Shown one piece after another: positions 32,496 to 38,328 of a stretch of 64,000 nt of DNA (position 1 is the stretch's first letter; each line of letters opens with the position of its first letter). The notes below the pieces were generated by a model. That model was given only the letters and a program-made list of their open reading frames with translations, was not told where the DNA came from and did not search any database. Source of the DNA: Candidatus Sysuiplasma jiujiangense (GTDB lineage: Archaea > Thermoplasmatota > Thermoplasmata > Sysuiplasmatales > Sysuiplasmataceae); NCBI GenBank assembly GCA_019721075.1, contig JAHEAD010000011.1, positions 1 to 64,000 on the forward strand, read 5' to 3'. Position numbers and translations under genes: made by a program.

Positions 32496-33173
32496 CTATT
32501 GCGCGATATCTGCTGCATGCAGCCCGTAGTGGGACACAAAATGGACTATCAGCAGAAAGACAATGAATAACGGAACCAGCAGCAGGTCGGTGAAGCTCAC
32601 CACCGTTTCCGCGTACCAGAATGCAGAGAATGTGAGGAGCAGGGCTGAAACAAGCATCTTCATGTTTGCCTGCTTTACCTTCCTGACCTGTGAATGCAGG
32701 GCTGCCGCGGCAATGACAACCACCGCCACACCGAAAAACAGGCCGAGAAGCGTGGAACTGTAGCTGTTTGGATAGAGGGCTACGAGGACGATGGCAGCCT
32801 CGAACGCTTCGACAGCACCAACTGAGAAACCTGTGGCCAGTAATCCCTTCTCCTCCTCATCGTGGTGGCCGCCCTTCCACTTGTTCAGACCTAGCGATGT
32901 TCTTACCGCCCTCCTGGCACTCCTTGTCAGTCTCAGCCCGAAGTAAAGGAGGAGGGTTGCGGAGATTAGCCTGACGTAAACAAGCGGAAGAAGAGAAATA
33001 TAATTTCCGATGATTGCGGTCGGTATGAATATGACGAGCGCGCCTGCCGCAACGGCCAGAAAGGCAGATGAATCCCGTGTCTGCGCATACAGCGCGATGC
33101 CGACAGCCGCGGCTTCAGCCATCTCCAGGAGGGTTATACCTGCAGCCGCCAGGAAAATGCCAACATCAAGCAT
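32496..33173 (-). CDS. Membrane protein with duplicated acidic transmembrane motif
   Basis: A 225-aa protein with about six membrane helices in two repeats separated by a His/Glu-rich cytosolic loop (KWKGGHHDEEEKG). Each repeat begins with a helix bearing paired glutamates: TLLEMAEAAAVGIALYAQT and GAVEAFEAAIVLVALYPNS. This resembles an uncharacterised archaeal membrane family (COG4280-like, from memory). Duplicated E-x-x-E helices are found in some cation transporters, so cation transport is possible but not shown. Confidence 0.7.
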   Translation of the reverse strand: MLDVGIFLAAAGITLLEMAEAAAVGIALYAQTRDSSAFLAVAAGALVIFIPTAIIGNYISLLPLVYVRLISATLLLYFGLRLTRSARRAVRTSLGLNKWKGGHHDEEEKGLLATGFSVGAVEAFEAAIVLVALYPNSYSSTLLGLFFGVAVVVIAAAALHSQVRKVKQANMKMLVSALLLTFSAFWYAETVVSFTDLLLVPLFIVFLLIVHFVSHYGLHAADIAQ

Positions 33174-33700
33174 TATCTGGCAATAACCGGTGCTATTACT
33201 TAAAATATAAGCGGAGACAGCAAACGGATTGCTCTACGACCCCGACGATTCTCATCCTCCCCGCAGGGTAGAGTCTGGCTTCTTTGCCCCCCGTTTCTGT
33301 CGGTATCATGAAGTCAGTAATGCCGCCATCCCCACGACATGCCGGGACATGTTTTTTATCACCCGCGTGAATTTCATACCGCATTTTCGCAGGTATCAAC
33401 TGAAATCATCCGGTTCAATGACTTCAAACTGTAACCCTTTGTTTCCCCTGAAACGCGACATCGCACCAGCCGGCAATTCACGAAAACCGCAGCATGGCCG
33501 AGGACAGGGCCTTTGCTGCATGCTTAATTCTCTGTCCGTATGACCGTTCATATGCACTCCAGTCTCTTCAGGCGTGCCCAGGTCTGGAGTACTGTTCCCT
33601 TTACTTCTTGACAATGAAATCGAACGCATTGTGAAATCTGTCAAACAGCTATTTAGTCAGTACAGGCAGTAGCATTTCTGTGCATTGTACATATATCAAT
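33174..33700. other. Intergenic region, no supported gene
   Basis: About 530 bases with no convincing gene. Short frames exist on both strands but lack coding bias and promoters. The TATA box GTACATATAT (33687-33696) at the right end serves the DUF2080 gene. Confidence 0.5.
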
Positions 33701-33883
33701 ATGCCAGTCGTTATGAGAACAGTTGAGGTCGTTGACGGCAATCTGCAACTGTCAGACGAGGTTGTTGCAGTCATAGAGAAGGAAGTGACAAAATTCGGTA
33801 CAGGGGCAAAGGTTGACTGCCCCAGGAAGTTCCTGGGGAAAAGGGTCTATCTTGTGATATGCGAGAAGGGAAGAGAAAAATGA
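33701..33883 (+). CDS. DUF2080-like small protein
   Basis: A 60-aa protein. Its C-terminal half, GAKVDCPRKFLGKRVYLVICE, resembles the archaeal DUF2080 family (pattern 'x-VPKEYIGKRVxVVI'), small proteins often encoded next to transposases. No transposase is adjacent here. ATG 33713 is an alternative start that would fit a leaderless transcript from the TATA box at 33687-33696. The fold suggests a small beta-rich, AbrB-like DNA-binding protein; this is inference. Confidence 0.6.
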   Translation: MPVVMRTVEVVDGNLQLSDEVVAVIEKEVTKFGTGAKVDCPRKFLGKRVYLVICEKGREK

Positions 33884-34150
33884 CGTATGTCGCACTATCA
33901 TCCGTGCCAAATATCATATATCCACCTTCAGCAAAATCCTACAGTACTGCAGACTATGTCCAGTGTCTGTTCTGTGAAGCGCGGTACTGTGGACGCAGAA
34001 AAATGTCATGGCCATGCACCGCAAAGTGGGGGCACGGAAGCAACTACAGACGGATAAATGAGGGGGAAGGCAGGAAAGATATTGGTCGGGCAAGGCGGCC
34101 AGGGGTCGCCGCCGCCGGTGCCTGAAAACAGTCGTGGTGAAGCAAATAAA

Positions 34151-35989
34151 ATGACAAAACACAGGCGGAAGTATCTGATGGCTGCACTGGTCGTATTGCT
34201 GTTTTTATCAGCCACCACAGCATATGGTGGCCAGCATCTGACTGTAAAGCCGAATGCAATGCAGAATGTGGTGAGCAGCGGTTCCGCAGTTAACACGCAA
34301 GATAAGCAGCTGGGCATTACCATGGACGCCGTCCCTGGTGCCGATGGTGGCGGTCCGTCGATTCCCCAGCCATCCGGTGCTATAGTCATTTGTTCCGGTC
34401 TATAATGCATTCGTGTCGCACAGTACCACATCCGTGGTGGTGAACAATTCTGTAGTTTTCCCGACAGGGTCATTTTCAAGGATCACAGTTACGTTCTTCT
34501 GCACATACGTGAGCAATCCGTTCGATACGAGCTTTATTGTCGAGGTCGATAATGTACAGATTATTGCGGGAAACACGCTTGAGCTTGAGAACACATCCGT
34601 TACCCAGAATGTAACCGATTATTATTCCATACTGCAGGGTACTGCAAGTGTTTTGGTAACATGCCCGCAATTTAATCCAGGATATTCATCCTATCTGTCG
34701 GCCTGGTTCACATTCTACGGCGGCACGAAAGCCCCGCAACCGAATGTTGTCCTGCCTGCCTTTACTTCCGCCGCATTTCCCACGCCGGGAAATGCATTCC
34801 CGGTAAACGTGCCCATTCCGTTCAATGTGTCCAGATATGCCAATGTGACGTTTCCGTCAGACATCACCAATGCTTACATCAATTTTTATGAGCAGCAGAA
34901 TGGAAACGATGAATTCTGGTACACATTGCAGCCGCCGTTCAGGGAGTTCAGAATATTTATCAACGGCACGCTTGTCGACACCACACAACCATATCCGAAC
35001 ATACAGGCAGGCGGGGGCGACCTGTTCCTGTGGCACCCGATACTTGCAATAGGTGCAGAGTTGTATCCGCCGCATGTGATACAGCTTGCTCCATATCTAT
35101 CGCTTCTTCATGGAAAGCAGATGATCCAGGTAGAGGTCCTTCAGGACGAAAACCTCTGGATCAGGGTTGCGCTGAATTTCATGATAACAACGGGTAGCCC
35201 TACAAAGGCTTCAGTGCCTGCCACATCGTTCCAGTTCCTGAACGGTATACGCAATCTCCAGCCACCAATGCAACGACGGAGAGCATACCGCCTACTGCCA
35301 CATATCTGAACGATTCCGAATCCGTCAGTGAGACATTTACCGCACATGGTTCTCAGAAATCTGCGTTATGGAGCAATGCCAGCATATTCAAGAAAACAGT
35401 ATCGTTCAACGCAAATTCGACTATATTTGATCCAAATTTCAACATCACCGGATCCACGCAATACGGCACAGGTGTCGTATACAATCAGAATTTCGCCATG
35501 TATGAGTACATCAACACAACATACCAGACGGACAGCACTTACCACGCTTCGATGCGAGGACATGCACTACAGGTAATAACGACAACGCAGAAAAGCGAGT
35601 ACATCCAGGTCAACGGGACGGACGTTTTTGATTTCATATTATCCTCGCCGTTTTCCATTCTAATCGGCTTCAATGTTACGCAGATACGCAACATCAGTAC
35701 GACGGTGACAGTATCAACTATTACCGGGTCAGGTTATTTCACAACATCGCGGACAGATGTGAACAGCACAATAGTCAATGGCACAGAGGCGTTTCTCGGT
35801 GAAATCAATTCGGAATTCGAGATCACGGCATTGCTTGCCAATCATGCCTACACCCAGAAGACGGTGAATTCAATATCAACGGTCAACGGTCAGGTTACTG
35901 CATCCTTTGATTTGAAGGAAATAGCTGTCAATGATTCCCTCGTAAACAGAAATGGGACGCTGATTTACTATCAGGTTTCATCGACCTGA
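34151..35989 (+). pseudogene. Secreted PNGase A-like glycoamidase, interrupted by two frameshifts
   Basis: A signal peptide (MTKHRRKYLMAALVVLLFL) begins at 34151. The frame breaks at the TTT run at 34389-34391, and sequence continues one frame over as VPVYNAFVSHSTTS. This frame holds the PNGase A-family core: GNDEFWYTLQPPFREFRIFINGTLV, then FLWHPILAIGAE and the LWIRVALNFMI strand. Near 35235-35260 it shifts back to the original frame (TQSPATNATTES) and runs to a stop at 35987. The repaired product would be about 612 aa with many N-glycosylation sequons. PNGase A enzymes remove N-glycans from glycoproteins, and an acidophile example is known in Sulfolobus. Either real decay or assembly error. 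Confidence 0.75.
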
Positions 35990-36484
35990 CTTCTGTGTTC
36001 GTTCCATACCCTGCTGTTTCAAACCATTTTCCCTTTTTTTAATTTCCAGGCTGAAAAGCATCGCAGGCCGCCATGCAATTGCCTGCTATCTGCCCTCCTT
36101 TCCCTTTCTGCGGATCAAACTGTCCGTCGGTTGTTCCGAACCGCACCATGTCATCATGGATGCGGTTGGAATCTATCCCTTGGAAGTCAGGGTTTATGGA
36201 AGGAAGATCGTGCGATGCCGTGGAATCGGAAACGGCAGTGGACGCGCCCCGGAAAGACACCAGCGAGAACCTCATGTTGCGAGTTCTGTGGAATGCTGAC
36301 TCAGACCGATGGACACTTAGCCAACCTTCCATGAAACCTGCCAGTCTATCCCTGAGAATGTGGCATTCGTTTACTGAAACAAAGACTGCCACAAAAACTG
36401 AATATTCAACATAGACGGATGCCATAAGGGATACCGCTGGTTTCAGGAAACATGGCAGAGACCGGAATTCAAGTCGTATATCTA
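35990..36484. other. Intergenic region with a diverged repeat, no supported gene
   Basis: Overlapping short frames on both strands lack family resemblance. The only structure noted is the 58-base repeat copy at 36327-36384, matched beyond the ATPase gene. Confidence 0.45.
36327..36384 (+). repeat. Diverged direct repeat, copy 1 (flanks ATPase gene)
   Basis: This 58-base stretch aligns without gaps to 37903-37960, with 43 of 58 bases identical by my count. In the same relative frame both copies read SMK...WHSF followed by Ser/Thr/Lys residues. The two copies bracket the ATPase gene in direct orientation. They may be remnants of a mobile sequence. Confidence 0.5.
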
Positions 36485-37735
36485 CTAAATACCTGGATAA
36501 TTGGGTCCTAAACTTGTGCTGTCTTGCTCAAGAAACCACTTCCACACAGGCTTTATCGCTATCTTCCTTTCCGAGAACTCCATCTCATCCTCCTGATTGC
36601 AGGTCAGCAGCAGACCCTCTTTAAGCCCGAATGTCTCCATCGCTTCAACCAGACCTTTGATTTCACGATCCCTGTTATCGTCATCAATATCATAGCACAC
36701 CTGAATGGCCCTGACTATACTGTTTCCTTCCCTGACAACGAAATCACATTCTCTCTTTCCCTTATAATAATAAACCTGCCGGCCATGTCTGCGCATATTC
36801 AGGAAAACCTGATTTTCCAGAATTCTGCCCTTGTTTGGTGTAAACGAAATAGAATTTGCTCTGTATAATCCCGAATCTATAGAATAAACCTTTTTCGGAC
36901 TGATTGCCTGTTTTTTCATTGAATAATCAAATCTTGAAACTGTAAAGAGCAGGTAGCTGTCCTCCAGGTATGAGACATACGCAATCGCACTATTAGTAGA
37001 GCCAAGATTGAACATCTTTGCCAGCTTGTTGTACGAAAACTCGCCCCCCGTGTTGGACAGCAGGTACAGAGCCATTTCCTTCACTGTTTGCGGGTTTCTC
37101 AGCTTCTGTCTTACAACTATATCTCTTGCCAGTATATCATTCAACAGTTCCTGGAGTATCTCGTTTCTGCCATACCTGATGTATTCCGGGAAACCTCCCA
37201 TGCGGGTATATTCACCGAAGGAATCCGGTCCGGCAGCTGAAGATGTGAATTTCAGGAATTCGCCGTACGAGAAGGGAAAGAGTTCGTGCCTCAGATGCCG
37301 CCCCGTCAGTTTTGTTCCCAGTTCCCGGCTCAGGAGCGAGGCGTTCGAACCTGTGATAACAAAATGTTTTTTCCGATCAAGCATCGAGCGAACGAATGTT
37401 TCCCATCCATTGATGTTCTGGATCTCGTCAAGCAGATAAATATCGAACTTTCCGTATGCCTCGGTGAGTGCACTGTCGAGCTTCAGCAGGTCTCCGCTTT
37501 CCATCCCGGCTGTTCTTGGATCTTCAAAATTGAAGTAAGCAAAACACCGGGCATTCCTCATGACCTGACGAAGGAGTGTACTCTTTCCGCAACGTCTTAT
37601 TCCTGAGATCATAATTGCAAACGGCAGATTTACATCTATTCTGGACAGTTCATCACGGACAACACCTGTGTCCATAGTTGGAAGCTGCTCTTTCTGAGAG
37701 TTTACAACACCCTGCAGAGTCTCCTTTAGAATCAC
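36485..37735 (-). CDS. AAA-family ATPase with DUF4143 domain
   Basis: A 416-aa protein. The N-terminal AAA_14 ATPase has Walker A GIRRCGKST near residue 45 and Walker B YLLDEIQN near residue 100, with the sensor-type TGSNASLLS. The C-terminal part from about residue 200 is the DUF4143 region, with the nuclease-like KGKRECDFVVREG segment (D-E-x-D/K pattern) near residue 345. Such genes are very common in archaeal accessory DNA and spread between genomes; their function is not established. A tandem-repeat operator overlaps the promoter. Confidence 0.88.
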   Translation of the reverse strand: MILKETLQGVVNSQKEQLPTMDTGVVRDELSRIDVNLPFAIMISGIRRCGKSTLLRQVMRNARCFAYFNFEDPRTAGMESGDLLKLDSALTEAYGKFDIYLLDEIQNINGWETFVRSMLDRKKHFVITGSNASLLSRELGTKLTGRHLRHELFPFSYGEFLKFTSSAAGPDSFGEYTRMGGFPEYIRYGRNEILQELLNDILARDIVVRQKLRNPQTVKEMALYLLSNTGGEFSYNKLAKMFNLGSTNSAIAYVSYLEDSYLLFTVSRFDYSMKKQAISPKKVYSIDSGLYRANSISFTPNKGRILENQVFLNMRRHGRQVYYYKGKRECDFVVREGNSIVRAIQVCYDIDDDNRDREIKGLVEAMETFGLKEGLLLTCNQEDEMEFSERKIAIKPVWKWFLEQDSTSLGPNYPGI

Positions 37736-37745
37736 TGGATAATGT

Positions 37746-37781
37746 ATGCATCAGTACTATACAATATTATGCATTTGTACT
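37746..37781 (-). promoter_or_regulatory. Promoter with two direct-repeat operator half-sites
   Basis: ATGCATCAGTACT (37746-37758) and ATGCATTTGTACT (37769-37781) match at 11 of 13 positions and start 23 bases apart, about two helical turns. The A+T-rich stretch between them (ACTATACAATAT) contains the TATA box of the ATPase gene on the minus strand. A protein bound to both copies would cover the promoter. Confidence 0.5.
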
Positions 37782-38235
37782 GAACATGACTCGTTAGCCA
37801 TAGAGAAATAGTGGAATTTACCATCCTGACCGATGGCGCAATTTCTACATGCAGGTTTACTTATGATTACATCCATTGCCAGTTCTGTGGCAGACTGTTC
37901 CGTTCCATGAAACTTGACCGTTTATGCTTCGGGATATGGCATTCATTTTCTAAATCACAGGGGACACTGAGCACGGCCGTGTACCATACCGTCTTGTATT
38001 CAAGCTGTTTCCTTTACTAGACAAACGGCGTGTCTGAAATGGCAGCGGCAGGATGACGGTTCTTCACCATGCCGCCTGCATTCAGGTCTTCGACATCAAT
38101 AACCGGCTCGGCATTCAGTTTCCCATAATAGCGATGAACATCCCTGCCTCCCGCCAGATTACTGTGCTTCGACAATACTGTCTTGAAATAAAGAAACAGC
38201 GTGTGTATAGGTTAGTATTTGCCGATTATGTTCAG
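37782..38235. other. Intergenic region with repeat copy 2, no supported gene
   Basis: No gene is supported between the ATPase promoter and tRNA-Arg. Positions 37903-37960 are the second copy of the 58-base repeat found at 36327-36384. Confidence 0.45.
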
Positions 38236-38328
38236 CGGGCCCGCCGGGATTCGAACCCGGGACATCTGGCTCGCATCCGTTTCGTGCGTTAGAAGGCCAG
38301 TGCTATATCCGAACTAAGCTACGGGCCC
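38236..38328 (-). tRNA. tRNA-Arg (anticodon UCU) with 18-nt intron
   Basis: On the minus strand the acceptor GGGCCCG pairs with CGGGCCC and the T arm CCGGG-TTCGAAT-CCCGG is perfect. The anticodon stem CTGGC/GCCAG closes the loop CTTCTAA once an 18-base intron (38272-38289 on the plus strand) is removed after position 37, the canonical archaeal site. The anticodon is UCU. Discriminator is G; CCA is not encoded. Confidence 0.93.

Follow-up and report, generated by a model that had tools for sequence, protein, structure and literature searches.

Enzymes of the PNGase A type cleave the asparagine-GlcNAc bond by hydrolysis. The characterised relatives of PNGase A work in acid, and PNGase H+ is most active at pH 2.6 and does not need a metal (PMC4231336). 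In the acidophile Sulfolobus acidocaldarius the S-layer N-glycans are chitobiose-linked (PMC2948927), and suitable substrates therefore exist in such acid habitats. A literature search found no experimental test of an archaeal member of the family. Zebrafish Ngly2 (PMC12753239) was rejected as a member, being PNGase F-like and from another family.

The locus described here lies in a window of 64,000 nucleotides, the whole stretch of DNA that was analysed, from the acid-dwelling archaeon Candidatus Sysuiplasma jiujiangense (contig JAHEAD010000011.1). It carries a PNGase A-like gene that is interrupted by two frame changes and that we take, with good but not full confidence, to be a young pseudogene, derived from a gene for a secreted glycoamidase of the PNGase A type.

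Three-frame translation of 34000-36060 shows the gene, at 34151-35989 on the forward strand, passing from frame A to frame B and back to frame A (Table 1). The first frame-A part begins MTKHRRKYLMAALVVLLFLSATTAYGG... at ATG 34151 and runs to TAA 34403-34405. Frame B is open from 34386, directly after a TAG at 34383-34385, and stops at 35307-35309, and the second frame-A part ends at TGA 35987-35989. The profile match of frame B to PF12222 scores 57 bits, the curated cut-off being 25.3, and NDEFWY and most other conserved positions are retained in this core. Neither frame-A part (A1 and A2) has a significant match of its own in a Pfam scan; both match the same orthologous proteins as the core. 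An export signal can be recognised by inspection as a hydrophobic N-terminal segment after KHRRK. Judged from the sequence, the three-part layout is not a product of chance, because the parts are collinear and a single open frame elsewhere matches each of them at 44-85% identity. The initial annotation had placed the signal peptide, PNGase A core, and C-terminal part in frames A, B, and A, had assigned the core to PNGase A, and had pointed to conserved family residues in the middle stretch; the translation, the orthologue matches, and the profile search bear this out.

DNA alignment with two congeneric orthologues locates one extra window base at about 34389-34393 and one missing window base at about 35247-35250, and tblastn switches frame at 34391/34392 and 35243/35246. 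Both agree with the positions first proposed from the letters alone, a TTT run at 34389-34391 and the interval 35235-35260. The conserved VPVYN is already encoded in frame B from 34392, and the first change therefore falls within 34386-34392. The lesions lie near the linker/core and core/C-terminal borders of the orthologue model, and no function is read into this placement. With its two frame changes the window copy does not offer the continuous frame from which the enzyme could be made, and the gene as it stands should yield only a signal-peptide-plus-linker fragment ending at 34403.

Table 1. Features of the PNGase A-like gene and of the insertion that holds it, in window coordinates.
Feature	Coordinates	Strand	Evidence
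Insertion of about 5 kb holding the gene, from the conserved upstream gene (32496-33173) to the tRNA gene	33215..38235		synteny with G001:C24, G003:C11, G002:C6
Dispersed repeat with DUF2080 "transposon-encoded" gene (33680-33883)	33514..33896	+	copies in G000 C13 and C12 and in congeners
N-terminal part, signal peptide and low-complexity linker, frame A	34151..34388	+	translation; orthologue identity; helix and disordered linker in orthologue model
First lesion, one base more than in the orthologues, TTT context	34386..34392	+	DNA alignment; frame B opening; VPVYN
PNGase A (PF12222) core, frame B	34392..35243	+	57 bits to PF12222; orthologue identity; NDEFWY
Second lesion, one base fewer than in the orthologues	35243..35250	+	DNA alignment; tblastn switch from frame B to A
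C-terminal all-beta part including stop codon, frame A	35246..35989	+	orthologue identity; beta strands in orthologue model
AAA_14/DUF4143 ATPase gene, inside the insertion	36485..37735	-	Pfam
tRNA gene, right edge of the insertion	38235..38328	-	ARAGORN; sequence

The same-genus orthologues, G002:C3 (L011/L044) and G003:C65 (L014/L010), have the length and architecture of the window gene, but each occupies one open frame and a different genomic neighbourhood. The core is 83-84% identical to the two proteins and the C-terminal part 67-70%, while part A1 shares 53% identity with L014/L010 and 44% with L011. The intact orthologues score 59.6 and 51.3 bits against PF12222. The frame that is whole in the orthologues is thus the one that is broken in the window copy, as expected of a pseudogene. 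More distant Thermoplasmata relatives are likewise unsplit: L015, L016, L018, L019, L020, and L022 each have a single frame that takes in the core and C-terminal part and reaches further upstream, and in L017 and L021 the two lie in a single frame inside larger proteins. The three parts were looked for as separate genes in relatives, the arrangement that the initial annotation had named as speaking against its reading, and none were found; orthologues and distant relatives are not divided at these places. Among 300 genomes of the class PF12222 is present in just 39, and the window open frame, at 307 aa, is the shortest among the matches there, the others ranging from 485 to 1421 aa.

Other members of this set show variations of their own. 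For example, a PF12222 gene at L006:1507-2961 (G029) is without the N-terminal part, has an in-frame TGA ahead of it, and may be another broken copy. Among further Thermoplasmata PNGase A-like proteins (L056, L057, L059, L061, L062, and L063, from G072, G271, G220, G061, G126, and G196), those of about 920-1220 aa carry C-terminal PKD/BiPBP-like domains, and the G061 protein, at 558 aa, gives a far stronger PF12222 match (236 bits) along with a weak PNGase_A_C match.

The gene sits in an insertion that is missing at the same site in three congeneric genomes. The flanks (30.0-33.2 kb and from 38.2 kb) adjoin in G001:C24, where about 370 bases separate them, and in G003:C11, where about 130 do, and a different 5.5-kb stretch is found at this position in G002:C6. 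The G002 and G003 orthologues are nonsyntenic with the window gene, and the immediate gene surroundings of the G002 locus are not conserved in the genome studied here (G000), G001, or G003. The PNGase A-like gene is therefore accessory and was probably transferred, because the insertion is absent in the three congeners and the orthologues are sited elsewhere. The tRNA gene at the right edge is probably an intron-containing tRNA-Arg(TCT), as read from its sequence. A search on either side of the insertion for direct repeats of the att kind gave short, weak pairs only and no convincing site, and no integrase was recognised within the insertion. The site itself, empty in G001 and G003 and holding other DNA in G002, is a possible integration hot spot. 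The DUF2080 repeat of about 380 bases has full or partial copies, 82-96% identical, in the same genome and in congeners and is perhaps a non-autonomous transposon. The initial annotation had also linked the gene to a surface-glycan island. Sugar-related genes do occur at 56-63 kb (four glycosyltransferase-2 genes, an epimerase, and a methyltransferase), but a link to the gene is unsupported, the two being more than 20 kb apart and the gene lying in a separate insertion.

Codon models suggest that selection on the window copy has been relaxed to a modest degree. These used our own implementation on a fixed tree of the window, G002, and G003 genes, with some distances near saturation. Over the whole gene, dN/dS is 0.17 on the window branch versus 0.087 for the orthologues (2dlnL 7.62, p = 0.006), and for the core alone it is 0.14 versus 0.045 (p = 0.008); the C-terminal part shows no relaxation (0.15 versus 0.115, p = 0.46). 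When four outgroups are included, dN/dS is 0.22 on the window branch and 0.08 on the remaining branches (p = 0.004). At columns that do not vary in the outgroups, the window copy has four replacements of its own, among them D to C, Q to H, and G to E; the G002 orthologue has none of this kind and that of G003 has two. Eight neighbouring genes served as controls under the codon model of the window, G002, and G003, and in seven of them dN/dS does not rise significantly. The result is as expected of a pseudogene but is suggestive and not decisive because the remaining control, gene 42112, rises too (p = 0.026), and because the model is our own, with a fixed tree and near-saturated distances. On the window branch dN/dS nonetheless stays far below 1; simple mixing would make about a tenth of that branch neutral.

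This history of purifying selection, which covers most of the window branch, would also fit a gene that is intact in the organism, with one or both indels being sequencing or assembly errors. The two shifts compensate in phase, and the genome is a draft of 55 contigs. However, 15 conserved neighbour genes, which lie between 18.9 and 44.7 kb and together make up about 18 kb, have no frame break relative to congeneric proteins, and for this reason two breaks in 1.8 kb are unlike the general error rate; by arithmetic, a random error process with two hits over 20 kb would place both in this gene in <1% of cases. Site 1 is no more than a TTT run and site 2 has no homopolymer longer than two, and the mild rise in dN/dS would be left unexplained. 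We regard an error of this kind as unlikely, though it is the strongest of the alternatives.

Programmed recoding, with +1 and then -1 ribosomal frameshifting (or transcript slippage) giving the full protein, would account for the restored net frame and for the fact that all three parts can still be read. Yet the shift at site 1 would be confined to the few bases at the start of frame B, with VPVYN coming before the stop at 34403, and this stretch has neither a stop nor an obvious slippery motif. The sequence at site 2 (CTG AAC GGT ATA) is not a -1 slippery heptamer. Inspection revealed no slippery site or conserved recoding signal at either shift, and the single-frame orthologues have no frame change and no such sites there. 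We know of no archaeon with double recoding of this type. Recoding is accordingly very improbable, and an active gene that is translated across both frameshifts, first +1 and then -1, into a secreted glycoamidase is harder still to credit. Just as little can be said for a natural gene split, in which the frame-B ORF (34413-35309) is made alone as a core-only protein lacking a signal peptide and C-terminal domain: the lesions are close to predicted domain boundaries (strands from residue 77, core end at about 368) and frame B is a nearly clean core, but no relative was found with such a build, the nearest listed start, GTG 34413, cuts off part of the first strand, and relaxation is clearest in the core.

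The initial annotation had left recent lesions, assembly error, and recoding side by side. A real and recent loss is favoured because of the unbroken neighbours, the dN/dS results, the window-only replacements, the missing slippery motif, and the single-frame orthologues; assembly error is less likely, and recoding has found no support. For the young pseudogene, the gene would have reached the genome, probably as accessory DNA beside a tRNA gene, and would have been under selection for most of its history. The reading frame would then have been lost through one single-base insertion and one single-base deletion. Homology and the predicted fold show that the original product was exported and had a PNGase-type double jelly-roll, and the original enzyme would have cleaved the asparagine-GlcNAc bond of N-glycoproteins in acid surroundings. 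Decay is slight, with dN/dS far below 1 and only two lesions, which between them bring the frame back.

Taken alone, the break is ordinary and holds little interest. The locus contributes a broken copy to the little-studied archaeal PNGase A-like proteins and suggests that such genes come, move, and decay in Thermoplasmata. A more useful lead is the intact set, i.e., secreted and presumably acid-stable PNGase A-like proteins, some of them fused to thermopsin. This set shares acid habitats with organisms such as Sulfolobus acidocaldarius, with its chitobiose-linked N-glycans (PMC2948927).

One of the fusions is encoded in the same genome. A search of that genome places the window on G000:C11 and returns a second PF12222 match on C7, intact but distant. 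Apart from this thermopsin fusion, about 29% identical to the window core, no second orthologous copy was found there. In the C7 protein (L048:11516-15415, 1300 aa) and in L021:3547-7584 (1346 aa), thermopsin (PF05317) and PNGase A (PF12222) are fused. The fusions have the PF12222 domain in common with the window gene and, unlike it, carry an N-terminal thermopsin acid protease. The C7 fusion gene adjoins a pro-kumamolisin-type protease gene and a second thermopsin gene is close by, a neighbourhood that suggests extracellular glycoprotein digestion. A literature search returned no paper naming both thermopsin and PNGase.

The relationship to known enzymes is clearest in the predicted structure of the intact G003 orthologue L014. 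An AlphaFold2 model built with 12 aligned sequences has a modest mean pLDDT of 63.5 and a pTM of 0.47. It shows a helix at 8-15, disorder to 76, core strands at 77-368, and an all-beta C-terminal part from 386, in keeping with the double jelly-roll PNGase fold. The best Foldseek match in the PDB is PNGase Bb (E 6.7e-21, 604 alignment columns), which spans most of the model length at about 16% structure-aligned identity. PNGase F entries (1png/1pnf) come next, with E about 4e-9. PNGase F is a separate sequence family, and Pfam scans of the window gene and orthologues are without a PNGase F domain. With the PNGase A family, which includes almond PNGase A, acidobacterial PNGase H+, and PNGase Bb (9vla), the window gene and its orthologues share a PF12222 core above the cut-off, and the window gene also has the NDE.WY-type motif and export in common with it; the window copy differs in that it lacks a single frame.
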